A stretch of 64,000 bases of DNA from Moniliophthora roreri. Taxonomy: Eukaryota > Basidiomycota > Agaricomycetes > Agaricales > Marasmiaceae. The notes beneath the pieces are model-generated. The model was not told the DNA's origin and did not search any database. It saw only the letters and a program-made list of their open reading frames with translations. The stretch spans positions 496,001 through 560,000 of the forward strand of contig LATX02000193.1 of NCBI GenBank assembly GCA_001466705.2. Reading direction: 5' to 3'. Shown in pieces: positions 2,564 through 61,668 of the stretch (the stretch's first letter is position 1; each line of letters begins with the position of its first letter). A program made the position numbers and the translations under genes.

Positions 2564-2633
2564 AGCTCTCGTACAAATGTGAGTTGAGCACACTCCACTG
2601 CGCTTTACGTCTCCATTCTGTCTCAACACATGA

Positions 2634-23382: not shown

Positions 23383-26300
23383 GGAAGAAAATTGTGGTTT
23401 GGTACTAGCCTCCGCGAAGGCATTGTTGTCATCTCGAAGGATATAGACAAGTCCGAGGATAACTTTTCCCTCCGATACACTCGGTCCCGAATCATTCGCC
23501 TCGATCTTTTCAAGTTAGCGCCCTCTACGCGTCGTCCTCAACAGCAACAGCAACGCGCTCAAGTAACCATAGTACCATGGTCACCTGCCTTGACTGACAG
23601 TATGTTCTCGACATTCCTCTCTTTGGACGATTTATATACATTGTTTAGCGCTCAGAGAAGAGGTCATGACGACGAGCGAGGCAGTATCTGTCCTTTCGCC
23701 TATCCCTGTCTGTCGCTTTTCCCTCTCCAACATCTTGGGTGCTAGCACCTCGTCCGGCTGGTCCTTCCTGGGATATGGTTTTAACAAACCGTTCATATTC
23801 GTATTCGCATGCAGCGATCTTACGCAGCGGGCGCGTAGAGGTCAAAAAGGCTGGAATCGGTTTGACAACTTGGAAAGGATGGAAAGAGAGATGGCTGGTC
23901 CTCAAGTCAAAAACTCTTATCGCGTATAAAGACGTGTGTTCTCTATACCCCTACCAATCCATTCCTCGAAACTAACAGCGGCGTTTGCAGTCGAACGAAG
24001 TTGAAATATCCTTCTACGTCCCCCTCGAAACTCTTAAACGTCTGGAACATCGTGGTCAACGATGCATCCTGCTTGTCGGCTCCAATGCACAATATTACCT
24101 CTCCTTTCCGAGTAACAATCAACTAGAAGGATGGTGTCGCGATATACGGGACTTGGTACCAAGCACAAATCCGAACCGTGGGTTGGAACTGATGTTGAAT
24201 ATTACGGCGCCTGTTGGTGATGCAAACGATGTGGTTGGGCAAATTATTGATGATTATGCGGTGCAGTGTTTAGCTTCTTTTTTTCTGATTGATCAACAAC
24301 TAAGCGAACTCTTCCTCTTATACAGTCTCCTGAAGAAGAAAGCCCGAATAATTCACCTGACCACTCGTTCTCCCCCTCTACCAACGAAACCTGCGTCGAT
24401 CAAGTTCAACTCCGAGTTGAAGCTACTGCCACAAAGGTTGTAAAACGCCAAGACCAACCTCCGCTCCAGCCAGACCAACGAACCATCATCCGACATGCCA
24501 TATCCATTCTCACGCATTCAATGGAACCACGTCTACTCCGGATCAGTGATCCAGGAGGTGGGAAAAGCTTCGACCTCGTAGACCTTCGTCTTCGACCACT
24601 CTTGAGGCTCAAGCGAAAATGGACCCATCTCCCAGAGGATCAACTTCAAGGGCACGATGAAAAGGAGATGCGAGCGTTCTCAGAAGCGCTACTTGATGGA
24701 TATGTTCTTTGCCAGTGCGTACTTATTGAAGCTGTTGAACAATGGCCTAGGCTTATACAGCTTTTTTTCCCTTCATTCAGATTTTACAACACTTTGCATT
24801 CGAATCCTGTGATACGACCCGATATACGGGATACGGTCAACGTAGCAAAGTTTCTCGCGCAATGTGTTGATTCGGGCCTCCCGGCGGACGATATTTTTCA
24901 GCTGAAAGATATCGAAGAAGCGTCGGCGGAATCACTCGCTCGTGTTGCTCGTACGATTGCTTCTCTGGTCAAAGTCGTCAGGGATAGCTCGAGTAGATCA
25001 AGAGCAAAGCGGGCTTTGATTAGTGGGAAGACGACGGATTGTGTTGAAGAGAAGTGGGCAGAGAAGTGGATCGAGACGAGGTTGGAGAAGAAGAGTTTGA
25101 GGTTTGATCCTGATTCCGAGTTTGTTCCTTCGGAGGGCATACATAGGATTGGGATCGAAGTGAAGGATGAGGGAGTAACATGTAAGATACCCAAGGTATG
25201 TTGTGTTATCGTTGAAGGGATTCGGTGCTGATGGGCATCTGAATAGGTCTATCAGAACCTACTCAACTTTTTAACTAATATATCACTACAGTATTCGTCC
25301 CAGCGGAGCGTAAGGTGCGTTGCATCTGCATCACCTTCCTTAAAGTATTCAAGCGAATTCATGCTCTTTAGCCTCCGACGTGCTCTCGACAACCTTTCTC
25401 GGTTTATTTGTTCTCTAGATCTTATATCCAGTCTTGTAGAGAGTCGAGGCTATCGACTCCGTTTACTCCAGGTTCGTCCCCCTTTTTCCGTCAGAACATG
25501 ACTAACGAGACACATGACAGATTTCCGCGGAATTCAAACTCAAACCTACAGAAAACCAAAGACTTCGCGATGCTTTACGCAAAGACGAAGAGGCTATCGC
25601 AAATCTACTAAATTCTGCTGTCGGGCCCGGAGAGAACGAGTTCAAGGAAGCGTTACTCAGCTTACAGGGCGAAGATGCGCAAAGTTGTGTTGACTTGATT
25701 CAAGATGTACATCCCTCTCTTTTTCATACCCCTTGCCAACTTACATCTTCATCTCATGATAGATCCTAGACAAATGCAATCCTGAGCACGACGAACTAAA
25801 ACATAAAGCGCAACGGCTGCTCGTCAAGCTATCCGAGGCTCAAGACATCTTACCTTCATCTCTCTTTATCAAAGGTGTTAAACGTCAGGACACCGATGCT
25901 CACTTTGGTGGTTCATTTGGAGATATCTACCGCGCGATGTATAGAAGCTCAGAGGTTGCGATCAAGCGGATACGTGTGTTCCAGGATACGGTGGCGAGAG
26001 ATCGTCGGAAGATCTTCAGAGTGCGTTACGCCTCGTAGTACATCATCTGTCATACTGACATGAACGTTCCTTTCACCAGGGTCTCTGTCGAGAGGCTATC
26101 CTCTGGCGAACACTAAAGCACCCGTTCGTCTTATCGTTCTTTGGCGTGGATTCAGATACTTTTCCTGGACTGTTCTGCTTGGTGTCACCTTGGATGGCAA
26201 ACGGAACGATCCTGAAACACTTGGGCGATACTGGTGGGCAGGACGTTGATTTACGGGTGCGTTATGTTCTCGAGTCCGAGTTTCCTGGACACTCACATGT

Positions 26301-27041
26301 AACCCAAAGCTATTCGAAATCGCACAAGGCTTAGCCTACCTCCACTCACAACACATTGTTCATGGAGATCTCCGCGGTTCCAACATTCTTGTAGACGCTG
26401 ACTGGCACGCGTGTATCGCTGACTTTGGCCTTGCCGTATTCTCCGATGTGACCGTAGGCACCAACTCGTCGCATCATGCCGGCTCTGTAAGATGGATGGC
26501 ACCAGAACTCCATCATCCGGGGACGTTTGGTCTCAAGTATTTCCGAAGGACGTTTGCGAGTGATGTGTATTCCTTTGCTTGTGTTTGTGTTGAGGTGCGT
26601 GTTGCGTCTTCTTTCTCTTTGTCGCACCCCGAATCGACCTTTTTTTGGTCAGCTATACACAGGAAAACCGCCATTCGAAGACGTTCCTCGTGATACAGCC
26701 GCGTTATTCAAGGTTATGGCGGGAGAAAGGCCCGCACGACCATCAAGAATGGGAGATTGGTTATGGAATATCGTGACAATGTGTTGGAGTCAGGAGAGGG
26801 CTGAGAGGCCGAGCATGTCAAGGGTGGTAGAGATGATGCAGAGTGGGTGTCCAGGAGGAGATTTGATACCTCTTGCAAGTTTCATGCCAAGGATGATAGG
26901 ATTGGATTCTAATTTCCTCCCTTGTAGATGCCTCCACCCGACGAAGCCTTTGATGAAGATATCTCGTTGCATGGTTTGGCGTCGCAAAGCCTTAGCCGAG
27001 GGAAGCCGGTGAGGAGGATCAAAGGCAGTCGGTCATTCTGA
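23383..27041 (+). CDS. PH + CH-like + TKL-type protein kinase, 5' end uncertain
   Basis: This multi-exon gene encodes in order: a PH domain (23815-24200, with GLTTWKGWKERWLVLKS and the terminal Trp in EGWCRDI); an acidic Ser-rich linker; a calponin-homology-like domain (24670-24990, LLDGYVLCQ...NVAKFLAQC...DIFQLKDIEE); a helical linker (25247-25890); and a protein kinase (25905-26870) with VAIKR, HGDLRGSNIL and DFGLA. Phase-checked introns are 23600-23648, 23934-23990, 24261-24325, 25196-25246, 25315-25371, 25472-25520, 25707-25762, 26021-26079, 26257-26309, 26595-26652 and a GC-AG intron at 26875-26927. One very short intron (about 23778-23814) is uncertain. The kinase residues needed for catalysis are present, although HRD is HGD, as often in mushroom kinases. 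The kinase and the linker are paralogous to those at 28781-30210 and 41528-43048. A membrane-recruited signalling kinase is inferred. Confidence 0.8.
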
Positions 27042-27569: not shown

Positions 27570-30210
27570 ATGAACCATACTCCTAAAGGAGTGATCTATG
27601 CTAACCTTCTCCTTCCCCTCCGACATGGTCATCCACTCTGGTTACCGGAACCTACTAAGCATAGCCTCCCTGAGGAATACTCAAGTAAAGGCGTACAAAT
27701 TGGGGATGTTGGTGTTTTCACTACAGACGGTGGTTTTGAGTTTCTCTTCAATGTCTGCCTTCCCGCAGACCATCCGATCAACCAATTCCGGGGTACGCCC
27801 AGTAATTTTATTCCCATTCGCTGGAATGGCCGGATTCTTGAAACGCCGAGTCGCTTTCGGCCTGGAGAGTTGATCTGTAGTCAGGATTCGGACAGACGTC
27901 GGTTATCCGTTGCGTACGTGAACGACCCCCTACGACGCTTCATTCCTTTCTGACTTTCTGTATCAAGAGGTTCTCCTGCTGGTGCTGGACAGGCGATCGC
28001 GCTCAGCTTCCGCAATCGCAGAGGTGCAGTACTGATGCTCCCGAACGGTGCTAGTCGATTTGACTGTGCGGACGTTGCTACTTTTCGCGAATATGCCAAT
28101 ATGAACGCCCCCGACTGGTATCGGTTCGTCCGCGTTACACTGGGCCGCGAACCTAAAAATGCTCCATTACGTCTCATCGTTGGCTTCGACAAGTCCGATT
28201 CTTGGGAAATGGCACTAGTTGACTCAAACCGTGCACCAACTCCGCCGCTGATCTTCTACAAAGACGTAGATGGCCGAATAAATTTGAAGAAACCGTCCCG
28301 GTCCTCTGCTCTGGATACATGGGTCACTACCAGAGACTCTACTAGTATTGGCATGAAGAACCAAACACTATTCATTCGTGCCCTCTCAATATCGTTTCGA
28401 GGATCGGTGCTGGTTTTGCAGCAGGATACTGATATTGCAAGAATTCAAAGCTATTTGTCGATAAGGAATGTCCTAGCTACCAACTATTCAACCTCCGGGA
28501 GTAGAATTGTCAATCTGAACGATTCAGATGGATATAGTTCTGATACTTCAGAGTACTATACCGCAAGAAACGCTAGTACAATTGACGAGGAACATGACGC
28601 CAACCTTTCACCTTCTCGGGTACATGTCCCATCTATTCAAATAAAGGGCAGACACTAATTTTGCGTACTGCTAGCCTTCACATCGTTCCCCGGGTGCTGT
28701 CGATGATTCTATCGTGCGAGATGTATGTTGTTTTTTCCTCGGTCATGGGGCTCAGCAGTTCATTTCATCTCCAGGGCCAGGAATCGGATATCATGGTTAT
28801 AAGCGATTCGGATATTACGTCGTTAATTGAAGAGCTCGTCAATTTGTTAAGGTCTGCCGTTGAATCGGGAGAGGAGGGCTTCAGAAGCGCAATGATTGGC
28901 CTGCAGGGTGCAGACGCTCAAAGTTGCGCTGACCTGATCCAAGATGTATGTTTCGCAGTCATTTGCTATTCTCCGCTTGATAGTACTCACAGTTCGTGTT
29001 TCTCGGAGGTTATCGACAAATGCACCAATGAACACCACGGGCCGCTAAGACACAAGACCCATCGTCTACTTGTGAAACTGTCTAGAAGTCGAGATATCCT
29101 GCCTTCCTCTCTCTTCATCAAAGATATTGTACTCCAGAACATGCACGCTCAGTCTGGTGGCGCATTCGGAGACATTTATAGAGCCATGTATAGAGACTCA
29201 GAAGTTGCAGTCAAGCGGATCCGCGTTTTTCCAAGCACTCCGGAAAGCGATCGGCAGAAGTTATTCAGGGTATGCTCGTCCTTCATTATTGTATATGACT
29301 TCCTCATTCATGTGAATACATGCAGAGCTTTTATCGAGAAGCTATCCTCTGGCGAGCACTGCAGCACCCCTACGTCCTGCCGTTCCTGGGCGTAGACTCT
29401 GATACCTTCCCCGGTTTCGTTTGTTTGGTTTCACCGTGGATGAAGAATGGTACGATTATACAGCACTTGAGGAAGGTGGACGGGCATGATGTTGACTTGA
29501 GGGTATGTGTCTGAGCTGTTATGGTAATTACTTGAGGCCCATAGATCTGGATTGAAAAGTTATTCGAGATCGCGCAAGCCCTAGCATATCTTCATTCACA
29601 GGATATCGTACACGGTGATCTCCGTGGTGTATGTCCTTTTGTTTTATTTTTCTTTCCATTTGACTGAATCCTACAGTCAAATATTCTTGTAGACCTGGAA
29701 TTCCATGCGTGTATCGCTGACTTTGGGCTTTCGGTCTTTTCAGACGGGACTCTACGCACTAATTCGTCACAACATGGCGGTTCCATGCGATGGATGGCTC
29801 CAGAGCTTCATCTTCCGCAAGGATTCGGTCTCAAGAGTCGTTGGCGAACGTTTGCGAGTGATGTCTATTCCTTTGCATGTGTCTGTGTAGAGGTTGATAT
29901 GAATTCGTTTCTCTTCTCCTTCAGATCTAGTCTAATCATTTTCAAGCAGCTTTACACAAGGGAACGACCATTCAAAGACGTTCATAATGATGCGGGTGTG
30001 TTACTCAAGGTGATCAAAGGAGAAAGGCCGAAACGGCCCTCTCGGATGAAGGGTTGGCTGTGGAATATCGTGGAGGCTTGTTGGGATCATGACAGAGTTA
30101 AGAGGCCAAGTATGTCAAGGGTGGTGGAGATAACACAGAGTGGGTGCCCTGGAGGAGTGTTGACACCTCTTGTGAGTTCAGCGTTGAGCATGCCGGAGCT
30201 GAAGCGCTGA
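27570..30210 (+). CDS. GHG-domain + TKL-type kinase fusion (paralogue 1)
   Basis: Nine exons give 735 residues: 27570-27913, 27968-28619, 28675-28722, 28781-28945, 29009-29269, 29326-29502, 29545-29628, 29677-29892, 29950-30210. Residues 1-330 are a basidiomycete domain of unknown function with GHGHPLWLPEP, GVQIGDVG, FEFLFNVCLPADHPIN, GAVLMLPNGASR and FDKSDSW. A 16-residue linker exon (AVDDSIVRD) joins it to a helical region (FRSAMIGLQGADAQSC) and a kinase with VAVKR, HGDLRGSNIL and DFGLS. The TGA at 27951-27953 is not a mutation: it lies in a 54-nt intron, and splicing it gives the same VxGS joint as the GTPase paralogue. An alternative last intron from 30172 is possible. A receptor- or adaptor-like kinase role is inferred. 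Confidence 0.85.
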
Positions 30211-33417: not shown

Positions 33418-34205
33418 TTGGGTAAGTGGTTGTGCAGGTAACGAGCTCTAGTGGAATTGAGCGCCGTATAGATAATAGAGAATGTAATATAGTCGTATCT
33501 AGTGTACTCGAGCGTAATTGAGCGCCCTACTGCGGCGAAAAATCGTACGATTTGAATATTTTATTTTCCAGCTGCCGTTCATTTACCTGCTCAGGCTAGA
33601 TTTCACTAGATTTGGCTCTGACGCAAATCAAACGACTCGATTTCACTAGAAAATCCGACCTCCTTATCCTCAAAAATATAGTGAGATCGAGTCCATTCTA
33701 GCAGTATCGAGCCGCCGGCAAGACTCGTTTTCACAAGACTCGGCTAGATTCGGCTCGATCGACCTTTTCCTGGGGCTCACCTCGTCACCAACTTACTATC
33801 GCATACTGCATGCCTTTCGTTGGATGCAATCTACTATTAACTATGCCATAATACTTGTACATAGCAAAAGATACTCAGTCGAATGATCCGTTTTCGAGGC
33901 TAACGTTGGGCATTGTTAGCTGAACGCTGTGCTGAGTGCTCTGAGGAAAATATTCCGAATTGGAAGGCCGGAGGCGCCGCAACGTTCAATGTCTGCACCA
34001 ATCACCATAGATTCTTAAACGGTCAAAGCAACGTTTTCGTATTCGGCTTGAGCTTGAAGTTACTGGGGCAGTGCCGTGCCACTGCCTACAATTTTCAGAA
34101 TAGCTGTAGAGAATTGACAGAGCTCAATCAATATGTCGCTAACAGCCGCTGCATGCGACAACAGCTTTCAACATGTAAAGATCCAGCTCTCTATCCTCCC
34201 TCATC
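33418..34205. other. Intergenic upstream of the GHG-GTPase gene
   Basis: It contains scattered similar short motifs (CTCGATTTCACTAGA, GGCTCGATCGA, GAGCGCC twice near 33460 and 33515) suggesting old simple-repeat decay. No gene or clear promoter element is recognised. Confidence 0.4.
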
Positions 34206-37200
34206 ATGGACTCTGAAGGACAGCTCTATGCCCGACTTCTCCTTCCGCTCGGACACGGCTACGCACTCTGGCTACCAGAACCCAATGGTGACCTCCCTGT
34301 GGAATACTTGGATCAAGGTGTACGAATCGGGGACGTTGGCATCGTCACTCCCGATGGCGGATTCGACTTCCTCTTTAACGTCTGCCTTCCTGTAGACCAC
34401 CCAATCAACCAATCCCGTGGCACCCCCGATAATTTCGTCCACATTCCATGGAATGGTCAGACTTATCAAATACAAAACCGCTTCCGACCAGGAATTCCTA
34501 TATTTAGTCGGCGCGGAAGCCAACGTCAGCTAAGCATCGAGGGATCAGTAATCGTTCCGTACGTGAAGATCCCTTTCCTCCAGTTCATTCTGTTTATAAT
34601 TCTCCGCATTCAGTGGGTCACTAGTTGGCGTCGGGGGAGGAATCGAAATATCCTTCAACTATGATAGTGGTGCAGTATTGATGCCCCCAAACGGCGCCAG
34701 TAGACTCGACTGCTCCCATCGAGCTGTCTTTCGCGAATGTGCTCAAAAAAATGCACACAACTGGTATCAATTCGTCAACGGTACACTAGGCCGAGAAGCT
34801 GAAAACGGGTCGTTATATCTTGTCACTGGCTTTGATAAGACGGACTCTTGGGAAACCGCACTATTCGACTCGACCCATTCGAGTCGGTCGTGTGTGTTGA
34901 CTTTCAGCACGGGCGGGGTAGCCGATGGCCGAATGAGGTTATCACAATCCTCTATTATTCAATCATCAGTTGCCAGCAGGTGCTCTACGACTACCGGCAA
35001 ATACAACCAAGTATTGTTCATTCGTGGCTTTCGAATATCTCTACGACAGGGACTGCATGCTCGGCTTCTCGGAGGTATAAGGATTGCTGATACCTATACC
35101 TCATCAAGCCGGCAAATTCTTGGTGGTGTGGGTCGCTTTCAGTTCAATCTTCCGGCCTCCCATCCAGGCTCCCCTCCGAGAGGCGGTGGGAATGAAAGTC
35201 CGGAAGGAACCCGCCGTGGTGATGGTAGCTCTTCTCCGTTTGATTCCAGCACTGTCTTGGATTCAGATGAGTACATAAAGGAACAGGATTCTAATGCTTC
35301 GGACAGCGACACCAGTGCTGAGGAAAGTGACTTCCTGCCTTCTCAGGTCTGCCCTCGTCTACTCGTTCATTAAGGAGTGTAACGCATACTCAACCTAGCC
35401 TTATCATCCCTTGAGCATTATCAATGATTCGATTTTGCGGAATGTGAGTCATCTCACGATCGTCATGGTTCTAGTGACTCATTCCCAGGTCATCTACAGA
35501 ATCACGATGTGGATATCGTTGTCACCCATGACGACGATTGGATCATGTTACTGACTAAAGAGGTTTGTGAAAACTAATACATGTTTGCACGACTGAGGAT
35601 CAAACATGGGCATGCACAGGATTCTGTGATGCCAGATGATCAAGTGTTGGTGCAAAGATTTGAAGAGAAATTCCATGTGTCTGTGACAAATGGTGAGCAT
35701 TTTACATATCTGTTAGTATACAGCATTGATTGCATTTCCTAAGGGTTGGCTATTTTGGAACCAGTCTCTGACCAAGTTCGCGCTGACGGCCGGCCATCGG
35801 AGACAATGTCAGAGTCGGCGCAATATAATAGGTCTTCTCGTAGAATATCGGACGGCGCCGTACAAACGCCTCATTCCAGAATAATCATATCGCACGACGG
35901 AGAAGACGCCGTAAAGAAACACGTTCCACGATTTCGGGTTCTGGTGATGGGCAGAAGGAATGCGGGAAAGACGACGATTCTGCAGAAAATGACTCAGAGC
36001 TCGGATGGAGAGTTTATTGTTCGTGACTCAAATGGAAATCAAGTGAGTTAGACACTGATGATCTTATAATAATAATCCCAGTTGACGACCTTGGTTCTTC
36101 AGGTAGATCCCGGTTCCATACTGCAGCCATCCGTTGAAGTGAGTACTGCTGCTACTGGTTTACTTGTTCATGGATCTCAATTGTTCTTTCTAGCGTGGTA
36201 GAAGTCGCATTGATTGGGAAATAACTTATCCCAGGTCCTCTTTTCACTCACTCAAATGGGTCGTGTGATGACTCACACGACCGTTCATAGTAATGAGCGC
36301 TTTGTGTTTCACGACTCGCGTGGGATGGAAGCTGGGTCGCGAGACGAGCTGGAGACGTTGAAGGATTTCATAAAGCGGAGAATCCAAAGGGTACCATTGA
36401 GCGAGAAGTTGCATGTCATATGGTGAGCCCTCGAAGTGTTGGGTTAGCCATTCCTTTAACATCCATCTAAGGTATTGTTTGCCTACCGACACGAGTCGGC
36501 CTCTGTGTCACGAAGAGATGGCTTTTTTTGAGCAGGGTACCGGAGACGGTGAGTGACTTAGTTGCTTTCTACAGGGTTCGGTGGTAATCTGTTCTTCAGT
36601 CCCTGTCATTGCTGTATTCACCAAGTTTGAGGATCGTATCACCAAGGCGTTTAGTCAACTTCGCGACGGCGGTATGAGCCTGAGGGAAGCACGGAGACGT
36701 GCGCCAGAGAAAGCCTTTCGGGACTTTGAGGTGCTCTTTTCAGAACGGAGGCGACAGATGAGATACCCGCCTGCAGATTGCGTTTACTTGCAGAGCAAGT
36801 TGCACTATAACTTCAGTTGTCATACCACTCATCTACCCCAGATATGAACAAACCGGAAACAACGTGCGCCGACTTGACTTCAGCCACTCACAGAACCATC
36901 CAGACAGAGGTCATTTCGCGCCTTTTCGCCATGGTCCAACGAAATAGCGTGGAAGTCTCGATGGGAATCGCCTTGGTCTAGTATGTTCACCTGGTGTCAT
37001 CTCAGTTCTTTTGTCTCATCATGACTACTAGCGCCATGTCACTTGCGAACGAGAAACACGAACATGCACGACTGGAAAACAATAAAGTGTATGAATGGTC
37101 GATTCTGCTGCTTTCTCTATTTCCCCACTGGGTAAGTGGCAGTTGTCGATAATGATATAAGCTGAAGTCGACGTCACTCCCTAAATTTGGAACTTCAGAA

Positions 37201-39148
37201 AGTGTGTATCATAATCATTCCTTTGCTAGAAATTATGATCTAATCCTCTCTCTTAGGAAGTACGTCTAGACTCAAAAGACTGATGCATAAATTGTTTATT
37301 GACGAATTCTGAACGCCGACATAGTTTTTCGTAGGTATTTTCCCAAGTTCGAGAGCCGTTCGCTGAACCATTTGTCTAGAATGTGAGTGCTCAGCTTCAG
37401 TTATGAGATACCTCAAGGAACTCTGGTCAATTTTAGATGGTGAGGGTTTCGTGGCTCGCAGAGCCTTCTCTGTACTGAGTCTCCTTACTAGGAGGTGAAT
37501 CCGTTGCATTAGCGACATAAATCCCAACTCACCGTTAATACCTGTCCATGTGGCATGTCATATTAGGATGTTCGGTCGTTTCTTTGCATATCTCCGTTGA
37601 CAATTATTGACCTATTTTTACAGAATGTAAGATGCTTTGTATTGACCGTATCACGACATCTCATCCGCTATCACAGTGGGTGCGTGCGCCATCTTGGCTT
37701 GTTCAGGACTCGATTAAAAGCGGTTCGGGCATCGATTCAATTAGGAAGTAAGTTACACCTTTTTTTCCGGGGCCGTGTGTTGATTCATCGATTTTAGTGG
37801 GTACGTTCCGTGTAAAATACTTGGATTCATCGTCGCTAAACACTCTGTCTCGATTACGATTGTTAGCACGTAAGTCCAATCCATTGCGATGTCCGGTTAA
37901 CGCTCAATATCCGCCGTAGTGGGTTAGTTCTAGTACACTGAACCAAACGTTATCCATCTCACTAACGTGGCCCTCGCCAAATTGACAGAAAGTAAGAGTC
38001 TGCTTGATATCACCTTTCCGCCAATGCTAATCGACCACCATTGTCAGTGGGTGCGTATATTACTTCGTTATGGTCGAAAGGCTAAGTTCCAAGTACATGA
38101 TGGTGTTCAACGATAGGATGTACGTGCTCGATTTGTTCCTTAACGACGATCACTGATTCATTGCATCCAGGATGTATGTGGTCTTCGTACCTCTGGGAGA
38201 ATGATACTAACACACCGTTTGCGCCAAACAGGACGTGAGTCCCTCTATCCCTTACTTGCACCAACCCAGACGTCGGGACTTGGTTGTCTTCTGTAATAGC
38301 GGGTACGTGGTTCAGCGATTTCGGTGTGACGCTTCTATTAAAGAGACTATGGCAGGCTGTAAGTGAATCAAGTTGAACGAATCGTTGAGAAACTTAGAAG
38401 GTGTTTGGGATCTGTATAGCCGGTAAGCGTTGCTTGCCATCTACGCGTCAGACGTACATTGAAGCCTGTATATGTGTAGATTGTAGGCCATCTGCGTGAC
38501 TTCTTATATTCCGTCCTCACCAGGTTCTCCGTCATTGCCTTCGTCTAGTTTGTGAGTCTTACCTTCCCTTCATGAACTGTAAATAACTTTCAACAGACCT
38601 CCCAGGACCAGGAAGTTGTCCGTATCATCGTCCAGGCTGCGTTTTCTTGGGTACGCACGCACGCCTGTGGTCGCAAAGAAACAGGGCGTTGAACGATATT
38701 TAGAAGGATCCATCAGCAACGACAAAGCACCAACTGCTTGTATTCTTTATCGGTGAGGGCTACGGTGAGGATAAGTGACTTACTAAATATCCTCAACCTC
38801 CCAGATGTCCTGGTTATTGCCGAATGCTTATTTTGGAATGGGGGGAGCACACCATATAACATCGACCTCGTTCGCAATGTCATCTTCCAGTATGGTAATT
38901 CGCCAAAGTCTCGTGATCTGTTCCGTGCGATAGCGGGGAAGTTGTATACGGATATGGCAACGACGGTTTTGGGTAATGACGGGCATCTTTATCGCGACAA
39001 GTTGAGAGCCTTGGCAGTGAAGTATCAGAAGTTGTTGCTAGATAACCATTTTGAAGTGAGTGTGGCGGTCGGATTGTTGACTCGAGCTGATCATCGGCCT
39101 AGCTTCAGCGCTGAGCGCGGCGCTATATCATACCTTTCTAGGTGCTAG
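34206..39148 (+). CDS. GHG-domain + P-loop GTPase fusion with a microexon array (paralogue 2)
   Basis: My model has 39 exons and about 934 residues. Exons 34206-34558 and 34614-35346 encode the GHG domain (GHGYALWLPEP, GVRIGDVG, FDFLFNVCLP, GAVLMPPNGASR). Linker exon 35399-35443 ends NDSILRN, matching the kinase paralogues. Exons 35500-35562, 35620-35692, 35744-36042, 36103-36138, 36194-36234, 36291-36422, 36472-36548, 36600-36794, 36842-36980 and 37032-37131 encode the mushroom G domain: G1 GRRNAGKTT, G3 HDSRG, VIWYCLPTD, G4-like TKFED, and VYLQNMNK. Microexons follow (37199-38551), then 38597-38650, 38704-38752 and 38805-39148. All phases add up. The intron at 36795-36841 is GC-AG. G4 has Glu after TKF where TKxD is canonical, although Asp follows. 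The end may alternatively splice at 39055. A regulatory GTPase role is inferred. Confidence 0.8.
37132..38596 (+). other. Array of 23 phase-0 microexons (22 x 3 nt, 1 x 6 nt) separated by 24 short introns
   Basis: Between the exon ending in FPHW (37131) and the exon starting TSQDQE (38597), every intron-sized interval is bounded by a good donor and acceptor, and the pieces between them are exactly one codon. Microexons start at 37199, 37257, 37325 (6 nt), 37380, 37437, 37492, 37567, 37624, 37677, 37745, 37798, 37867, 37920, 37989, 38048, 38117, 38171, 38232, 38300, 38356, 38420, 38480 and 38549. Introns are 45-72 nt with donors such as GTAAGT, GTACGT, GTGCGT and GTGAGT, acceptors TAG or CAG, and branch-like motifs (TACTAAC in the intron at 38174-38231). 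None of the codons is a stop. The 24 residues are acidic/aromatic-rich, with four Trp at 37677, 37798, 37920 and 38048. Frame before and after agrees. Confidence 0.85.
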
Positions 39149-39346
39149 GTTCACGTTCTGCATAACTAGCGGTACATTGTGGGAAGGGACGATCATGGAG
39201 ATGGTTTTAACTTGTATTTTTACTGGTACACATACATCGTTACTGCAGAAAGATTATTTAATGGCAAAACAGCAGTCTCAACGTGAGTGAAAACATACCT
39301 TATAATCATGGTATCCTTCCCCCTCCCGTGACGTTCATGACGCGAA

Positions 39347-40090
39347 TCACAATTCCCCAGTCCACTGATCACTCTTTACGGTCGTGAGGTTCTCGTATCC
39401 GTCTTCAGTGATCACAACCACGTCTTCAATCCTAACACCACCAACACTTTCGCATTGCTTCAAAACCTCTTGGTGGATATGTTTGGAGTCGCGAATCGGG
39501 GCGATTAAATGAGGCGAGAAGTAGATTCCAGGTTCAACCGTCTAACCGAATGAACTTGAGCATAGAGACACAGAGAACTGACCACCACCATGCCCTTTTC
39601 CAGAGGTAACCGAAGTCTGAGGTAGGTGTAGCTTTCATGACCGAGCTTCACTCCTTTCCCAATCATGTCATTGACCGCCGGTTTGCTTGCGCTAGGCACA
39701 TCGTGCGTGTCCATGCCCAGACTATGTCCGAGACCGTGCAAGAAAAACGCCGAACTGATGCCTGAAGCGGGAATAGTCTCTTCGTCATCCTCAGGTCCTA
39801 CTGGAGATGTAGATGAATTGACGCCATTTGGTGACTTGAAGATGCCCAACTGCCCTCTTGACTAGGATTCGATGTCGAAGACGTTGGACTGCATCCCAAC
39901 AAGGGCTCGGCAGAAGAGTCCTAGATAGCGATTAGTCGTTGCCGAAAATTGGCTCCTCCAGAACAAGCCTTTGGAATGAATCTTCTGCTGTTCCCAACAG
40001 ACGTGGTTGTGGCAATGTCAGATGCGCTCGCATCGATGCCAAGTACAACTTGAGGAAGGAGTTTCTTGGGGCCATCATGAGCGGATTTGT
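39347..40090 (-). pseudogene. Xaa-Pro dipeptidase (prolidase, M24) remnant
   Basis: The minus strand carries the C-terminal half of a prolidase. It shows ASDIATTTSVGN (family ASDITRTxPVGN) near 40030, WDAVQRLRHRILVK near 39880, then after a frameshift SAFFLHGLGHSLGMDTHD near 39720. After a 41-nt intron (39542-39582) come TVEPGIYFSP and GGVRIEDVVVITEDG, with the stop TGA at 39347-39349. The metal-binding His of GLGHSLG and the Glu of VEPG and RIED are still present, but at least one frameshift near 39850-39870 separates the parts, and the N-terminal domain is absent. The frame appears truncated by the duplication that placed the third GHG gene to its right. Prolidases cleave X-Pro dipeptides; this copy is unlikely to work. 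Confidence 0.7.
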
Positions 40091-40287
40091 TCAGGTTGTA
40101 AGGACGGACCCGGATTGGACCCATGAGTTCGAGGCCTGTACAGTGTACGTGTCACCAGCTGATGCCGACAGCGGCGAATAACGGCTTGTGATGTTCCCGC
40201 GAACCCCCCCAGGTTCATACGCATGGCCAATCAAGTCCAAATAGGGCTGTTCAATCCTAAACATTCTAGTATTTCGCCGAATTCTCC

Positions 40288-43048
40288 ATGAACCATACAC
40301 CTAAAGGACAGATCTATGCTGACCTTCTCCTGCCTCTCCAACATGGTCACCCACTCTGGTTACCGAAACCTACTAAGCACAGCCCCCCCAAGGAATACCG
40401 ACGTCAAGGCGTACAAATTGGGGATGTTGGTGTTATCACTTCAGACGGTGGTTTTGAGTTTCTCTTTAATGTCTGCCTTCCTGCAGACCATCCCATTAAC
40501 CAATTCCGGGGTACGCCCAGTAATTTTACTCCCATTCGCTGGAATGGCCCAATTCATCAAACACCAAATTACTTTCGGCCAGGAGAGTTGATCTGTAGTC
40601 GGAGCTCGGAGAGGCTTCAGTTACCCATTCCGTACGTGAATGTCCTTCTACGACAATTCATTCCCTCTGACCTTCTGTATCGTTCTCCTGCCGGCACCGA
40701 GCGGCCGATCGTGCTCAGGTTCCGCAATCGCAGAGGTGCAGTACTGATGCTCCCAAACGGCGCTAGTCGATTTGACTGTGGGGATGTTGCTGTGTTTCGG
40801 AGATATGCCGATATGAACGCCCCCAACTGGTATCGGTTCTTCCGTGTTACACTGGGCCGTGAACCTGAAAATGGTTCACTGCGTCTCGTCACCGGTTTTG
40901 ACAAGTCCGATTCTTGGACAATGGCACTAGTTGACTCGGACCGTTCACCAAGTCCGTCGCTGATCTTCTACAAGAAAGACCATGGGCGGCTGAGCTTGGA
41001 GGAACTTTCCCGGTCCTCTGTTTCCCAGTCACCGATTACCATCAGATGCTCTACTAGTGTCATGAAGAACCAAACACTATTTCTTCGTGCCCACCCAATA
41101 CTTTTACGAGGATCAGAGCTGGTTTGGCGGCGGAACCCTGAAGCTACAGGAGCTCAAAGATATTCCTTACCATCCACCTTGCCTATAAGGAATGTTTACT
41201 ATTCTCGCTTCAACTATTTAACCCCCGGGAGCAGCAGAAATGGCTTTCTGAACGATTCAGACGGATATAGTTCAGACACGTCAGAGCACTATACCGCCAA
41301 AAACATTAACACAATTGACGAGGAACATGACTACGACCTTCCACCTTCTCGGGTACATGCCCACTTTACTTAAAGAAAGGAGCACACACTGATTCTGTAT
41401 ACTGCCAGTCTTCAAATCGTTCTTGGGGCGCTGTCGATGATTCCATCTTGCGAGATGTACGTGGTTTCTTTCCCGGTAATGAGGCTCAGCAGTTAATTTT
41501 ACGAATATGCAAACTTCTTTGGGACAGGAAATTGAATCGGATGTCACCGCTGTATTAGTAGTCACGGATGACTCGGACGTTGCGCCCTTAACCGAAACTG
41601 AAGAGTTTGTTAACTTGCTAAGATCGACCGTTGAACCAGGAGAAAACGGCTTTGAAGACGTGTTAATTGGTCTGCAGGATGCAGACGCTCAACGCTGTGT
41701 TGACCTGATTCAAGATGTAGGTCCTGCAGTCCTTCACTATTCTCCTCCTTCGTAGTACTCACAGCTCGTGTTTTCTTTCAAAGGTCATCGACAAATTCAC
41801 CACAGAGTATCCCGAGCTAAGGCAAAAAGCTCACCGTCTACTTGTAAAACTATCCAGGAGTCAAGATGTCCTACCCTCCACTCTCTTCATCAAAGGTATT
41901 GAACTCCGGGATACGAATGCCCAGTTTGGTGGCGCATTCGGAGACATTTATCGAGCCGTGTATAGAGATTTAGAGGTTGCAATCAAGCGGATGCGTGTTT
42001 TTCCGAGTACGCCGGAAAGCAACCGGCAGAAGTTGTACAAGGTATGCTCGTCTTTCGTCCTTATACATGATTCCTTGGTCATGTGAATGCTTACAGGGTT
42101 TTTGCCGAGAAGCTATACTTTGGCGAGCATTGAAGCATCCCTACGTCTTGCCGTTTTTAGGTGTAGATTCGGAAACATTCCCTGGTTCCTTCTGCTTGAT
42201 TTCACCATGGATGAAGAATGGTACGGTTTTAGACTACCTGGGAAAAACTGATGGGCAGGATATTGATTTGAGGGTATGTGACTGAGCTGTTACAGTCAAC
42301 TGCTTGGAACCCACAGGTCCCGATTGAAAAGCTATTTGAAATTGCGCAAGGTCTAGCATACCTCCATTCACAGGAAATTGTACACGGTGATCTTCGTGGC
42401 GTATGTCTCTTTGTTCAAGGTTTTCCAACCACTCATCTGAAAGCCACAGTCAAATATCCTCGTAGACTCGAAATGTCATGCATGTATCGCCGACTTTGGG
42501 CTTTCAGTCTTTTCAGACGGGACTGTACGCACCGATTCGTCACATCACGGTGGTTCAGTGCGATGGATGGCTCCAGAACTTCATGATCCGGCTAGATTCC
42601 GTCTGGAGTATGTTCGCCGAACATTCGCGAGTGATGTATATTCTTTTGCTTGCGTCTGTGTGGAGGTTTATATGCATTCTGTCTCTTCTCCTTGTCCTGG
42701 CCTAATCATTTTTGGCAGCTTTATACAGGAAAACGACCATTCGCAGGCATTCGACATGATACAGGTGCAATTCTCCAGGTAATCGTGGGAAAAAGACCAA
42801 AATGGCCACCTCATATGGAGGCTTGGTTGTGGAGTATCGTGGAGACCTGTTGGGATCACGACAGAGCCAAGAGACCAAGTGTATCGAGGGTGGTAGAGAT
42901 GATGCAGACTAGGTGCCCTGGAGGAACGTTGATACCTCTCGTGAGTTTAGGGTTGAATATGACGCAGCTGAGGCCTAATCGACGATTTCTTTCTAGCATG
43001 AGATGGTTTCGCTTAATGAAGCAGTCGACCAAGGATCACAACGCGTAA
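40288..43048 (+). CDS. GHG-domain + TKL-type kinase fusion (paralogue 3)
   Basis: Eight exons give about 788 residues: 40288-41352, 41409-41456, 41528-41716, 41784-42041, 42097-42273, 42317-42400, 42450-42665, 42719-43048. The N-terminal GHG domain (GHGHPLWLPKP, GVQIGDVG, FEFLFNVCLPADHPIN, GAVLMLPNGASRFDC) leads through the linker exon (GAVDDSILRD) to the helical linker and the kinase (VAIKR, HGDLRGSNIL, DFGLS). Its first exon is uninterrupted: the place where both paralogues have a 54-55 nt intron (40632 onward) has lost the acceptor and is read through in frame. Splice positions are otherwise identical to those of the gene at 27570. The last exon could instead splice at 42940 to a different tail. 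Its role is inferred as for paralogue 1. Confidence 0.85.
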
Positions 43049-54671: not shown

Positions 54672-57278
54672 GTTGAACTAGCTCTGAGTCGATGGTTTCC
54701 ATAGATTGATTCTGGCATCCTTATATATCTTTGAACCTTGGAGTGAAAGGTGGCTCCGAGATATTAGCACAAAGAAGGAAGTCCGACGAGATGACCAGGA
54801 CCCTGGTATACCTGTCGCGCGGACATGGGAATAGCGATAACTAGATAGAGTATCATCAAAACATGTAGGAGGACTGATTTTTGACAATCGGGATGAATCC
54901 CCAAAACTCACCTTGCCGTCTCCCTAATGGCAATCAGAGAAGTGCCAAGCCAAGCAACGCTACCCTGGGCCTCGAGAATTCGAATCTATCCAGGCCTTGC
55001 ACATTAAACTCTACGGCACCTCTATGAGCAGAGTGGGATGGCATCAGAGGCGCCACTCAATGCGCACCAATGAACAACCAATGAACGCGAAATTCGAATG
55101 TCTAGACCTTGACATATGACGTGCGCCCTCGGTCGCAGCACTAGTGGCACCTTTGTCATCAGCGAGGCTCAATCAACGATTCTGAACGCCAAAAATAACT
55201 CACGTCTTAACGCCACGCAAGATTCATCCCCATTATAGTTGCGACATGCATGCAAGCGGAGCACGGAAGGAATGCCGTACATCGAGTAGACATTCCTATT
55301 TGTCCAAAAGATTCCATCTATCCACTAGCTGGATTCAACGAAATCGCCGCATCGCGTGAGTGAGGACCGACCCATGCCGCGATACAGCACATCTGTTCAG
55401 AATAGCCACGCGTCAAGGTGCATAGGCGATTTCAGTCTTGAATAGGTCCATTCTCTTCTACGTCGAAAGTACTGCATCCAAGAAAATTGGTTCTTGCTAT
55501 CGAGCCGTTGTTCCTGAGCTCAAATCTCTTCGGATGCCACCAGATGAGACTCGCGATTCAAAAAGACCCAGGTATACTCTTCTCTGTTTCAACGTTAAAG
55601 CGAAATAGGAGCCAATATGATTGACACTGGCAACCGTAACACTGTCTCGGTTTTCGGCGCTGAAGTGGTTCTGATGAAGACATGTAGCTAACCTGTCGAG
55701 ATAGAGTGTGATAGGCACTTGGACGTACGGGGCTCCATACTAAAAGCGCACAAAAACCGCCGGTATCTCAAACACACGGGTTGGTACGGAATAGAGAACC
55801 GAAACACGAAAATCCTTTGGTTCCTTGTTTCGGTGAACGCATCAAGGTACTGCAACTTTAGATTCCTCCGGATAGCAATTCCTGGTCGATCGTCAGCCAG
55901 AGCGCTAGTTGTTAAAGGATCCATACTCTACTTTTGCAGGGAAATTTAAGCCTGGTGTATACTTCAAGGCTGCGCACAGGCAGGTGCAGAGCTACAAAGT
56001 GTTAACCACCATTTCGGTATGTGTGGTGTCAGAGCTCGTCCTGACTCACAAGCACGTGCTTAGGGTCTCAACAACCTGTGTCACTCCGATGGCGGCAGGG
56101 AAATGCAACATCCTGCGAGACAACCAATTTCGGGTGCTGCAGGAACAACAAAAAGAGCCGAGATGTGGTGGTTATGAATCTGCCTTCAGGAGCGATGTAT
56201 GGGCTCGGACGTTTGCTTCATTGTTGAAGGTTCCGCGGATGAGGGTCAAGCTCGAATAAGCTGGAGCAAACCTAACCCGCAACGGCGATAAGCATGCAAT
56301 GCATTTGATGACAACCTTGGAAAATCCGGGGAGAGGAGTAACGGAATACGAAAATCTTCGTCACTTGAACAATGCCTATCGTCGAGAACATGAAATGGCA
56401 CCTGATTCACATTGGCCAATCCTAGTAGAGCCTAGTAGATTGAGTATCCTTGCGTGTAGAATTATCATTTGGAAGGTATGTGTCGGAAACAGTAGATGGG
56501 AGTAGATGGGAGTCGTCGCTTCAATTCTGTCAGGAACCGCGACGTAATCCACAGCATGCTGTGGGAAATTTTAGATGGTACACGGATATCGTCAAGCTTA
56601 CTTCATTGCAAGGCATCCCAGTACTCGCAAGATGGTGAGTTTTGCTATGCAATATATGATAGTTAGCGTCCTCACTGCCAGCTAGCATCAGAAGGAAAGA
56701 CGACATACCCGATAATTTAGAGTCGAGGGTGGTAAATGTAGTCGGGAAAGACAGGTTGCCACTAACCTCAGATACCATGTTCCACTATTTAGCCAAATAA
56801 GACCTTTCCATCCATCTCTTGCTCAATTCAACCATCCATGTCCAGACTCCAGATAGACCTGTCCACTACGAGAGACTTGTGATTGTTTCGGCCACGTGAC
56901 TCGTTCGAAACCACCTTCCGGCTTTTCTCACATCCGAGGTCCTTGAGCGCCTTGAAGGCATCACCTCGACGACTGTGGCCGGCTGTTCCCTCTTCATCAA
57001 AGCTAATTCTCTTGTTTTGCATCCACGAGGACACCTCTCCATGTCAAGACATTCTCTCTCATGCTCTCGGGTTGCATGCGCCCAATCCATCAAATATCTC
57101 CCACCAAGATCAGCCCCAGGAATCCGCATTCGGATGGAACCAATGAAGCCCAATCAGGACTATGTCCCACTTATTTTTGCTCTCTGCTCAGTAGACACTG
57201 CATGCCTTGATCTCACGTCAATACATAAAGGCCCACCAAAGTCGTGGGTAGCAATTTGTTCCTCTTACATGCCTGAAT
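54672..57278. other. Intergenic region, nothing recognised
   Basis: There are many short frames but none with domain-like content. A small tandem GTAGATGG(GA) repeat lies near 56492. The divergent neighbours imply that promoters lie at both ends. No repeat shared with the left half of the window was noticed. Confidence 0.4.
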
Positions 57279-58718
57279 ATGTCGACCCTACGTCTGGTTA
57301 CCTTCATTCTCATTGTCGTCAACTGGGGCATTCATGGCAGCCGAGGTCAGAACACCGTGCAGGTGGGATCCTCATACATATTACTTTATCCGATATTAAC
57401 GGCGTTTACAGGTGGTTATTGGTAAAAAGGGCAATTTTTACGATCCTCCTGCTGTCATTGCGAACAAAGGCGACACAGTTCAGTTCATCTTTGATGGAAA
57501 GTGAGTCAACCAACTATTCTTACGGTGAGCGCTGCCTGAGCATTTAACATTCTAGTGCACATGGTGTTGTGCAATCATCTTTCGAGAAACCCTGTGTCCC
57601 ATTACCAGGTGGCTTTAGTAGCGGCGTAACAGGGAGAGGGGACGACTTTACCAAGCCTATTAGCACTTGGAATTTGCAGATCACCAATGCGTCTATACGT
57701 GAGTAATGTGTCTACATATCCTCTAGCTTTCTCAGTGAAGCATTATAGCAATATGGTACTACTGTCCTGTGAGTAATCCTAGCTCGCATTGCGCCACTGG
57801 AATGGTTGGGTACGCCCATACCGTCGTCCCGTAATAGAGTCGATCCTAATAAACAATTTTAGGGTCATCAATCCCCCAAATTCCAGCATTATTGACTCTT
57901 ATATTGCGTCTGCAAAGCAGTTCACTGGTACTCAAGTGGTGAATATACTTTTCGTCTATCAGAATCGAGACCTGGCTAAATCTTTTATACAATAGCCGGC
58001 TAGTACTGCTCTTACCGGCATAGGTGCCTTTGCAACTGACACGCCTGTCCCAATGACAGCTTCCACTTCTTCTACGACATCTGTGTCCATGACGGAGTCG
58101 CCACCCTCTACTGCGACCTCTCAGTCGAGTTCCACTACCAATTCTACCGACTCCCGTCTACCAGCAATCATCGGCGGCTCTATAGCGGGAGCTGTAGCGG
58201 CGTTTGCATCCGTCCTCATCATCGTTCTGATCGTTCATAGGCGCCGTTCCCAACATGGCCAAAATACGACTGTCGAAGCTTACAGTTATCCCTACGGACC
58301 TGGTTCCCCGCCCATGACTGCTCGCTCCGACTTCTCCAAGATGTCAGACCCGAGGGCAACGACACCAATACCGGCAGCTCTTCTTTATCCAGCCAGGCGT
58401 CCTGAAACAGAATATACAAGTCCGCCTGGGTCTCCTCCTCCGACTTTGAGGCCCCAGGAAAGCAAGACCGGTATTCGAGGTATATCCTCTATTGAATACC
58501 CCGGGTCCGGCGGACAACATGAAGGTCATGACGAAGGTCGGGCGGACACCCTCAACACGCTTGCAAAGGAGGTTGCAGCCATTCTTCTGCGAACCGGATC
58601 GAATGACCGGCGGGCAGGAACCGAAGCGACGAGCAGTAATGGGGATGGTCATGGTACCAAAAACGAAGATGAAGCGCCGCCACGGTATAGGTCTAATTTG
58701 GGGCACACACCACCTTAA
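57279..58718 (+). CDS. Extracellular cupredoxin with Ser/Thr stalk and TM anchor
   Basis: Six exons: 57279-57362, 57412-57500, 57556-57698, 57749-57809, 57863-57935, 57996-58718. A signal peptide (RLVTFILIVVNWGIHG) is followed by a plastocyanin-like domain with the family pattern VVIGKKGNFYDPP, the His of AHGVV, and WYYCP followed by HCATGM, supplying His-Cys-His-Met copper ligands. Next come INPPNSS, a Ser/Thr-rich stalk, a TM helix (AAFASVLIIVLIV, near 58210) and a basic, then Pro/Ser-rich cytosolic tail. The layout matches the serine-rich cupredoxins of basidiomycetes; the TM-anchored form with a long tail suggests a wall-associated sensor or adhesion role (inference). The start at 57279 is preferred over the out-of-frame ATG at 57269. 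Confidence 0.8.
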
Positions 58719-58979
58719 ACGCATTTTATTACCATCGCCGAGTATCAGTTACTACTTTTAATGGTCAAGGAAACAATCTTACGGATTCTCGAATGATCGT
58801 GGCGAACGCGGGAAGAGACGGCAGTATTCATACGACAGAAAGAGCGTATACAGAAACCCAAGAACTTGAGAACGAATACAGATAGTACATGATACATACT
58901 CCCAGAGTGTTTAGACAATTCTACAACATGAAATTCCCGTTTTTTCGCTGTTATGTTCCTTGATAGATTACAGATACCT

Positions 58980-61668
58980 TCATTCCATTTTCCACGCCCA
59001 ACTCGGACCTTTGAAAATAGACCAGCCACAATCAGTCAATAGCAAAGATGTAGCAAGGGAAGGTCACACCTATAGGATCCCCAGACTCATGTGCAGCACC
59101 GGTCCACATCCCCACAACACCCATCATAGATCCTATTCCCCCCACTTGAATGCCTTCCATCACCCACTCATCATGATCAGGTGATGAAGCATCGCTTGTA
59201 ATCTCCATCTCAATCGTGAGCGTGAATAAACAAACACAAAACCCGGGAAGGAACATACCAAAGTCCATCGCACAGCTCGATCTCCAATCATCCTTACCGT
59301 GCCTCTACACCGCCTTTGAGCATGTTCATCTACATCACTCCCAACGTATTCTCCTGCTACGTGGATAATGGGGAGCGCGTATACGAGCGGATCGTAAGCC
59401 GGTTGAGAATCCTCCAATCCCAACATCAAGTCTGCTAAACTCTCGTCTGAATCTGAATCCAGATCGACATCCGACTCAGCCTTGGCTTTCCCTTTCCCTT
59501 TAGTATCTGATTTAGACGCTCTGTTGTTGGCCAACTCGGCTAACATTGTAGTAGTATCGCCATCTGTTGCTGTCGTTGATATTGGTGACATGAGTCCTTG
59601 GGCGCTAGCAGAGGAGGTAGATGGCGGTGCACGTGCGTAAGACACCTGAGGAGATCTTGAACTAGAAGCTGCCGATGGCGATCCTGGTGCTTCGGGTGGC
59701 GGGAGAGCCGGTGGAGGTGGTACACGCGAGTAGCCTGTCACTCGGATTTGCATTGGAAACACCCGTATTGTTTCTTGTATATCCGGATTGAGCCGCGAAT
59801 GAGAAATGTCATAGGCTGAAAGCTATAAACAGAACTCTGAACAGAGATTTGAGGTAGCGAGTGACGGACATACGTTATGAACTGAGAGATGTGGAGTCGT
59901 TAGCTAAGTACGGAGTATCATATTTGGGGCATGATACTCACACAACAGGTCTCGATAATCCATCCAGGACACGGCACGCCTAAGATGGCATGAGTAAACT
60001 CCCGAAGAAGTACAAGCTTGCACTTACATCCATTTACCAGCTGCCCCAGCCCAATCCCAGCCATCAACCTCCCCCTGTTCCTTAGAGCATCCATTTACCT
60101 TTGGCTGGTTTTCTTCTTCTTCCCCTTCCGGCACAGGCTCCGGTTTAACCCATCCATGTTCACTCTTCACACCATCTGCATTCCAGAATCCAGGTGCTCC
60201 GCCCATTCTCAGCCCGTCCAAATTTCGTGCTCTCTCCAAAATCACCCGAGTACTGTCCAAAGCCTCCATACTTGTAAACCAAGGCCAGAGAGGTTCATGG
60301 TCAAATTTGTGGCCATATCTTTCGCGTAAGTTTTCCTCGACGACCATACGCGCTGCCGAAAGGAACGCGTAGTCCGGGCGGAGAAGATGCGGCTGGGCAG
60401 GGTAGATAGGGACGTCCAATTCGGGGGGAACTTGAACCTCTAGACTGGAGGCACCACTCTCGTCCTCATCTTCTGAGGCGGTTTCAATCACAACCCCTTC
60501 GATGAGATGACTGTTGCTCTCCGTATCGTCGTCATCGTCATCTTCAGGGTCGTAATCGCCGTCCACTTCATCCTCGTCCTCATCCCCGGCTGCAAGGATG
60601 AGACTATGTCCTGTGAAGAACGCATCGCTCAAGTTGCTGATGACGTGTCGAATAAAAGTATTTGCGTCACTCGACACCGCCGGCTTGGTAAACTTGCCAA
60701 ACGGAAGGTACGGGCCCCAACATCTGTCCGCGGAAAGGTAGCGAAGGTTGTAGACTCTGTGGCGGGCGAGGACACGAGCCAGAGAGCGCTGCTTGGCCGC
60801 TGAGGGTGACGATGGAAATTCCTCTTCATTACTGTCCTGGTGCTTCCGTCTGGAAGTACTACGGAGGTTGTAGTGATGTTCGTTCTCCGATTGGTCTGAA
60901 TCCTCCTCCTCTTCACCGCCGTCGGAAGGACGGGCTTGAAATCCAGTTTGGAGGAGAAGGTGATGAAAAGCTCTTCCCGCCTTCGTATTTTCCCATTGTG
61001 CGTGTCTTATGATTCGTTCGTTCTTGTCGGGTTCTTCGAGAGGTCGACCAATGAGACGGTGCATCAGAGCATCGGGGTACCCATCAGCGAGTAGATGCGA
61101 TATCCATGAGGCATTGGATGATTCGGTTTCGAGATTAAGTGAAGGGGGTATACAAGCATCTCGGCGGCTAGTGGAAGTCGAGCCAACTTCGAACTGGTCA
61201 TCGGTAGGTGAATGTAACGGGGAAGTAGTGATACTAGACAAAAGAGCATTAAAGCTCTGCTCAAGATAGGCAGGCTGTAGGAATAGTAAGCCTCTACAGT
61301 ATAGATTGGAGTGAATCGCAACGTACCTCGAGTGATGCAGACCCATCACCCTGAAATAATCTGACAGCGCGTACCCTGTCCTGATACTGGGTCCTCCAAT
61401 CAAACTTATCGTCCAGTAGTTCCTCCTCTGGAACTGGAGTTTTCAAAGCTTTCAGAACTGGCCGAGGGTCGTCAAATGTGGTTAGATAAATCTCTCGCCA
61501 GAGATGGTTGTCTGAGGAATCATAAACGAGATCCCTAAAGTACCGGCAAGTTCGTGACAACGAAGCTATGGATGAGGGCGACTCGAGAAGAGCACATACA
61601 ACAACGATGTGCTCTACAAGCTCCGTCGGCAGTGAGAATATCGAATTTCGAGGATTCTGGGTGGACAT
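58980..61668 (-). CDS. F-box protein with large acidic middle region
   Basis: Seven minus-strand exons: 61327-61668, 60028-61274, 59942-59979, 59874-59881 (8 nt), 59259-59822, 59070-59208 and 58980-59008, about 788 residues. The N-terminus holds an F-box (SLPTELVEHIVVVCALL...LSRTCRYFRDLV...LWREIYL), implying SCF ubiquitin-ligase substrate recruitment. The middle contains acidic stretches (DPEDDDDDDTESN near 60530). The C-terminal domain has WMRAVSWMDYRDLL, then across the 8-nt exon HNLSAYDISHS, and RVTGYSRVP; it ends in GPSWAWKME, recovered only after the 61-nt intron 59009-59069. All phases agree. The C-terminal pattern is shared with a conserved fungal F-box family; the substrate is unknown. 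Confidence 0.8.

Follow-up and report, generated by a model that had tools for sequence, protein, structure and literature searches.

The window analysed here is the whole 64,000-nucleotide stretch of the Moniliophthora roreri genome introduced above (G000:C93:496001-560000), and its subject is a predicted GTPase gene on the forward strand whose coding sequence is interrupted by an array of exons that are nearly all one codon long. The gene model spans 35806-39145, with 34 exons encoding 495 residues, no internal stop, and frames that agree on either side of the array. Eleven ordinary exons supply 471 of the 495 residues. Eight of them, placed by gene model and homology, lie 5′ of the array within 35806..37131 (35806-36042, 36103-36138, 36194-36234, 36291-36422, 36472-36548, 36600-36794, 36842-36980, and 37032-37131), and three lie 3′ of it within 38597..39145 (38597-38650, 38704-38764, and 38805-39145). 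The start codon at 35806 is inferred from the homologue P0001 of Marasmius crinis-equi, and the C-terminus is uncertain in that another intron may start after the HFE codons near 39057. Two ordinary introns have unusual donors: 36795-36841 is GC-AG (GCAAGT), and 36235-36290 begins with GTCCTC. The gene at 34208-35373 was considered as the N-terminus of the GTPase and dropped, as homology to P0001 and the end at 35835 of the similarity to a second copy on contig C113 favour a separate gene.

The array occupies 37132-38596, between the upstream exon 37032-37131 and the downstream exon 38597-38650. A base-by-base reading bears out what the earlier sequence-only reading had claimed for it, namely 24 introns separating 22 exons of 3 nucleotides and one of 6 (37325-37330), all in phase 0. 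The introns are 45-72 nucleotides long, all 24 are GT...AG, and their acceptors are TAG in 15 cases and CAG in 9. Two donors are weak, GTTCGG at 37570 and GTGAAT at 37495. In order, the 23 microexons are AAA (K, 37199..37201), GAA (E, 37257..37259), the sole 6-nucleotide exon TTTTTC (FF, 37325..37330), AAT (N, 37380..37382), ATG (M, 37437..37439), GAG (E, 37492..37494), GAT (D, 37567..37569), AAT (N, 37624..37626), TGG (W, 37677..37679), GAA (E, 37745..37747), TGG (W, 37798..37800), CAC (H, 37867..37869), TGG (W, 37920..37922), AAA (K, 37989..37991), TGG (W, 38048..38050), GAT (D, 38117..38119), GAT (D, 38171..38173), GAC (D, 38232..38234), CGG (R, 38300..38302), GCT (A, 38356..38358), CCG (P, 38420..38422), ATT (I, 38480..38482), and TTT (F, 38549..38551). 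Together they encode the peptide KEFFNMEDNWEWHWKWDDDRAPIF, 24 residues including four tryptophans and four aspartates, which occupies residues 320-343 of the gene model. Retention of any single array intron gives a stop or a frameshift in 23 of 24 cases. Zero-length recursive exons were rejected, since with the donor pattern used no acceptor AG in the array is directly followed by a donor GT, the exons being 3 or 6 nucleotides long. A scan of 34000-40500 at the Rfam gathering thresholds gave no match.

The spacing of the splice sites was compared with chance in two ways. The pattern YAG-N(k)-GTRNG[TA] was counted for k = 0 to 15 in the array, in the rest of the forward strand, and on the reverse strand. 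In the array, k = 3 alone is conspicuous, with 16 occurrences in its 1.5 kb, as against three times in the rest of the forward strand and three times on the whole reverse strand. Spacings of 0, 1, 2, 4, or 5 do not occur in the array, and those of 6 and 8 nucleotides occur once each. A splice-chain detector with free exon lengths of 1-40 nucleotides, its matrices trained on these same array introns, recovers all 23 exon lengths exactly and departs at the end because the 54-nucleotide exon 38597-38650 exceeds its 40-nucleotide maximum. The chain scores 137.3, compared with a best of 32.5 and a mean of 12.0 in 300 dinucleotide-preserving shuffles. When the matrices were derived solely from 11 donors and 11 acceptors lying beyond the array, the chain scored 90.0 and the best of 200 shuffles 51.2; this weaker run called 23 exons, of which 19 measured 3 nucleotides, one 6, and the remaining three 26, 13, and 16 nucleotides. 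Across a scan of 157,007 bases per strand, strong chains, scoring 68 to 143, are confined to the array of the window, that of its copy, and two homologous ones; the next-best reported chain scores 22.

The copy, L003, was found in a search of the 59.4 Mb genome (154 contigs) and lies on the reverse strand at about 2540-5770 of G000:C113:83000-92500. It is a second copy of the GTPase gene with the full array of 23 microexons, and its model is open over 424 codons with no stop. None of the 48 donor GT bases and none of the 72 acceptor YAG bases differ between the two copies, and changes are found at 2 of 96 bases in donor positions 3-6 and at 34 of 1,177 other intron bases. The array exons differ at 3 of 72 bases, which silently change microexon 16 (GAT to GAC in the copy) and replace the residues of microexons 19 (CGG, R, to TGG, W) and 22 (ATT, I, to ACT, T). 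L003 appears to be a duplicate at a dispersed site and not the second haplotype: its similarity to the window stops at 35835 and 39933, with unrelated sequence upstream, and the piece 57000-60000 of the window, taken as a test, is found once in the genome.

Evidence for splicing of the array comes from P0002, a homologue of 372 residues from a 1,435-nucleotide contig of another species. Its source code, "lgn", probably denotes assembled public reads. The P0002 frame is unbroken across seven intron positions before the array and across the array position itself, and the contig therefore very probably derives from spliced RNA. P0002 reads FPYW-NNFFHMERHYEVHWDWIEGWTPFLKL-SESDQE where the window reads FPHW-KEFFNMEDNWEWHWKWDDDRAPIF-TSQDQE. 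Its stretch of 26 residues agrees with the expectation of the sequence-only reading that family proteins hold residues between FPxW and the downstream exon. The 24 residues of the window, picked by splice sites alone, align with it ungapped from the left, with 9 of 24 identical, a BLOSUM62 score of 57, and the FF of the 6-nucleotide exon matched. Among 200,000 shuffled exon orders, one reaches this score and 10 reach this identity, and a gapped alignment test gave 2 in 20,000. This in-register match within a continuous frame makes it very probable that the array is spliced and translated, with its exons likely all joined in series.

How such an array may arise is visible in two distant GTPases of the same genome, L026 on contig C132 and L028 on contig C66, which were picked up by a 39% match over 61 residues and have arrays at the same place in the protein. 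The residues before the array are ...CLQWFCHVY in L026 and L028 compared with ...LLSLFPHW in the window, and the two loci share about 9 kb of colinear sequence that is 83-92% alike. In L028 (G000:C66:608000-617999), the highest-scoring parse out of six gives NY-D-Y-GET-E-E-Q-D-V-Y-Q-L and continues in frame into the C-terminal exon ALLICAEHSFW. Tandem Repeats Finder (TRF) detects a unit of 69 nucleotides, consisting of a 66-nucleotide intron and a 3-nucleotide exon, in 5.5 copies at 5740-6117 of L028 and in 2.5 copies of the same type at 5796-5966 of L026. Among nine units compared, three from L026 and six from L028, the introns are nearly alike except at their outer ends and the exon codons differ (AAG, GAT, and CAA in L026; GAA, CAA, GAT, GTT, TAT, and CAA in L028). 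Of the 67 contiguous triplets in the unit, the exon varies most, and 368 of 52,394 arbitrary column triplets are equally variable. Because units repeat with near-identical introns and differing codons, the comparison indicates that arrays grow through duplication of an exon with its intron, which keeps the frame automatically, and that the codons diverge afterwards. The window array would likewise have been built by unit duplication, and would be older and diverged.

At G000:C66:608999-610999 lies a repeat with 56 matches listed across contigs at 70-88% identity, most over its first 1.1 kb; these are probably transposable elements beside the GTPase pair. In L025 (C88), a segment is tandemly repeated at 3355-3699 and 4289-4633 beside another GTPase, which lacks an array; its translation contains an unread letter.

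The gene belongs to a wide family in mushrooms. Among the matches listed, the named proteins closest to it are GTPases from Marasmius, Paramarasmius, and Collybiopsis, and P0001, annotated as a G domain-containing protein, is homologous end to end (52% over 99% of the query, E value 1.8e-132). A set of 125 homologues was assembled from the best 120 of 211 matches and five added by further search, and FPx motifs starting at residues 200-420 were counted; some proteins are counted twice and a few of the motifs lie elsewhere in the protein, none being removed. In 31 of the 67 occurrences, V[SRCG] comes within the next six residues, as would result from in-frame translation of a donor, compared with a background of 5.2%, and in 54 the protein ends within 60 residues. 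Because of this excess and these nearby ends, the intron after FPx seems to be old and gene predictors seem to fail at that point. P0036 of Mycena capillaripes continues after MPYWRT, at the array position, with WRTFWYYYDDDDDDDDAAFFWWADAAFYDAFYYYRN, which has runs of D, Y, F, W, and A and is, to judge by the protein, as expected of multiplied codon units. Longer stretches at the array position are found in P0039 and P0059, which derive from short jgi contigs.

When 427 residues of the predicted protein were scanned against Pfam, the only matches were weak ones to GTPase or P-loop families, with neither NACHT nor ankyrin domains at E values up to 0.1. For MMR_HSR1 (PF01926), with a curated cut-off of 21.9 bits, the window protein falls below at 18.0 and P0002 rises above at 25.3. 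The window protein contains the P-loop GRRNAGKT. An AlphaFold model of P0002 with 82 relatives has a confident G domain and a less certain helical C-terminal part. Its top Foldseek match is the p47 immunity-related GTPase Irga6/IIGP1 (PDB 1tq6; E value 8.4e-7, TM-score 0.42, root-mean-square deviation 12.9, 16% identity), a resemblance that may serve as a lead.

These findings suggest a mechanism in which codon exons are spliced in series and translated, from an array enlarged by tandem exon-plus-intron units. We place the probability of this reading at roughly 0.77. Each short intron has its own donor and acceptor, and splicing would proceed by intron definition, with each 3-nucleotide exon presumably being joined to the lengthening upstream exon, as its new 3′ end, and only then having its own donor used. 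The array would have arisen and expanded through tandem copying of a unit that comprises a codon exon and an intron. Because every unit is a multiple of three in phase 0, units could be added, lost, skipped, or recoded without a break in frame, and the device may thereby vary a short segment of the helical C-terminal part of the GTPase codon by codon.

Several observations weigh against series splicing and unit growth. P0002 comes from another species, and its stretch is two residues longer than that of the window. P0001, an annotated gene model, carries a different residue string at the array position, which we take as a gene-prediction error. When the search was limited to residues 228-427, P0001 was the sole match among 459 candidates; this result is weak, as P0002 was missed too. 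In the window array, recent unit duplication was sought by TRF and by comparison of intron pairs and none was found, with 4 of 276 pairs having a z score above 3. The frame of L026 is not cleanly closed after its array; the best-scoring parse has a 7-nucleotide exon and the solutions are mixed. Between the window and L003, the array codons have one synonymous and two nonsynonymous changes in 24, compared with 12 and 14 in 400 elsewhere, and are not clearly faster. Another copy, L024 (about 5450-6780 of G000:C93:567000-576999), 79% alike and about 38 kb past the gene, has lost most of the array: it jumps from the pre-array exon into the middle of the array and is evidently a decayed copy. In the P0002 model, the array segment (residues 294-319) has low confidence, with block means of the predicted local distance difference test of 50, 49, and 60.

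In one alternative, which adds to series splicing rather than replacing it, the codon exons are cassettes of which each transcript takes a different subset, giving a repertoire of peptides. The phase and length of all 23 exons keep any subset in frame, and the available passages of reports on Tuber melanosporum NACHT-ANK genes describe alternatively spliced, codon-sized microexons (PMC3689799, PMC4986451); however, unit duplication alone would give equal exon phase, and P0002, the sole transcript-like relative with a matching stretch, has the whole stretch and not a subset. Combinatorial splicing is thus a serious possibility, to which we would give somewhat less than even odds. A neutral ratchet, in which introns were inserted one after another, by introner-like or other gain, into a continuous 72-nucleotide coding stretch and are merely tolerated, is unlikely. 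The window introns are unlike one another and the peptide is in register with that of P0002, as if the peptide came first, but 24 independent insertions all exactly at codon boundaries are hard to credit, and in L028 and L026 exon and intron are visibly copied together, with differing copy number.

The interval could also be a single intron of 1.47 kb or a decoy, with FPHW joined directly to TSQDQ, and the frame does survive skipping of the whole array. One large intron was rejected on account of the P0002 residues at the array position, which number 26 and lie in register with the codon exons; every GT and AG site is moreover kept in the C113 copy, which leaves this reading very improbable. 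The idea that a decaying gene carries splice-like sites by chance, for which the decayed state of L024 speaks, has next to no probability, being contradicted by the shuffles, by the two open copies, and by the in-register match of P0002. Chance origin was rejected because the observed chain score is far above that of dinucleotide shuffles, and pseudogene status of the window gene because both the 495-residue window model and the 424-codon L003 are open.

The sequence-only reading knew of no such run of one-codon exons in any fungal gene. The run within a GTPase gene stands, in register with P0002; the absence of a fungal precedent does not. The accessible text of one paper, citing Iotti et al. 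2012, ascribes tens of codon-sized, alternatively spliced microexons to the NACHT-ANK (nank) genes of Tuber melanosporum (PMC3689799), that of another, with the same citation, multiple such microexons (PMC4986451), and a third mentions 3-bp microexons in Tuber NOD-like receptors (PMC10197012). As far as these texts go, both systems are fungal nucleoside triphosphatase (NTPase) families with codon-sized exons in series, here 22 of 3 nucleotides and one of 6, and in both the frame is kept for any subset. The Tuber genes encode Ascomycete NACHT-ankyrin receptors with reported alternative splicing, whereas the window gene is an Agaricomycete GTPase with no NACHT or ankyrin match, its array lies in the C-terminal helical part, and tandem exon-plus-intron duplication is visible in its homologues.

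Systems further afield are less close. The p47 immunity-related GTPases, the best structural match of the P0002 model, have a G domain followed by a helical part, and no codon exons are known in them. As far as is known, exons of aphid bicycle and megacycle genes are longer than one codon. The part of the aphid report available describes fast-evolving families with many single-phase microexons (more than 100 in megacycle), unlike the window gene in that nearly all internal exons are phase 2 and the products are putative insect gall effectors (PMC9168663). Schistosoma micro-exon genes, in the available portion of their description, have short symmetric exons of up to 36 bp that can be removed in frame and are proposed to vary proteins facing the immune system, but these exons make up most of the gene (PMC8293314). 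The 23 array exons are likewise symmetric and no longer than 36 bp; here, the one- and two-codon exons all lie in a single stretch, while the rest of the GTPase gene is ordinary and microexons do not make up most of it. Plant microexons of a few nucleotides, often misannotated (PMC8831610), and those in Phanerochaete cytochrome P450 genes, which include exons of a few nucleotides and microexons of 2-10 residues (PMC1184071), are single or two adjacent in the accessible parts of these sources, with no run of 23. Codon-exon arrays in Basidiomycota or in GTPases were not found in the open-access literature searched. As far as that literature shows, the kind is already known from Tuber, and the host family, the phylum, the position in the protein, and the visible duplication of units are new.

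The genomic neighbourhood includes genes of other kinds. A NACHT-type reading frame lies on the reverse strand at 9655-10869 of the window, and a genome search listed 78 NACHT matches; codon-exon arrays were not found in the window NACHT gene or in three NACHT loci of 5 kb each (L033-L035). Surrounding the GTPase gene, at 27954-28658, 34208-35373, 40270-41373, 25347-26856, and 41827-42659, are several related genes, or pieces of genes, from an unnamed family, and the one member tested, 34208-35373, matched no Pfam family. The nearby NACHT genes, the fold match, and the Tuber parallel together invite the guess that the GTPase may act in nonself or immune recognition.

More broadly, and more tentatively than combinatorial splicing, codon-exon arrays may be a diversity device in nonself-recognition NTPases of two fungal phyla. 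A hypervariable segment would be stored as one-codon cassettes, multiplied by exon-plus-intron duplication, recoded singly, and mixed by alternative splicing, and many annotated Agaricomycete family members would hide arrays, with predictors stopping at the first donor. The sole fungal precedent found in the open-access literature is here extended to a second phylum and another NTPase family. The annotations of a large mushroom GTPase family are predicted to be often wrong at one fixed point. With 23 exons of three or six nucleotides in series, the gene offers a testable case of how the spliceosome copes with exons below the size of its footprints, and of a protein segment whose evolution would proceed through the gain and recoding of individual codons, each acting as a genetic unit.

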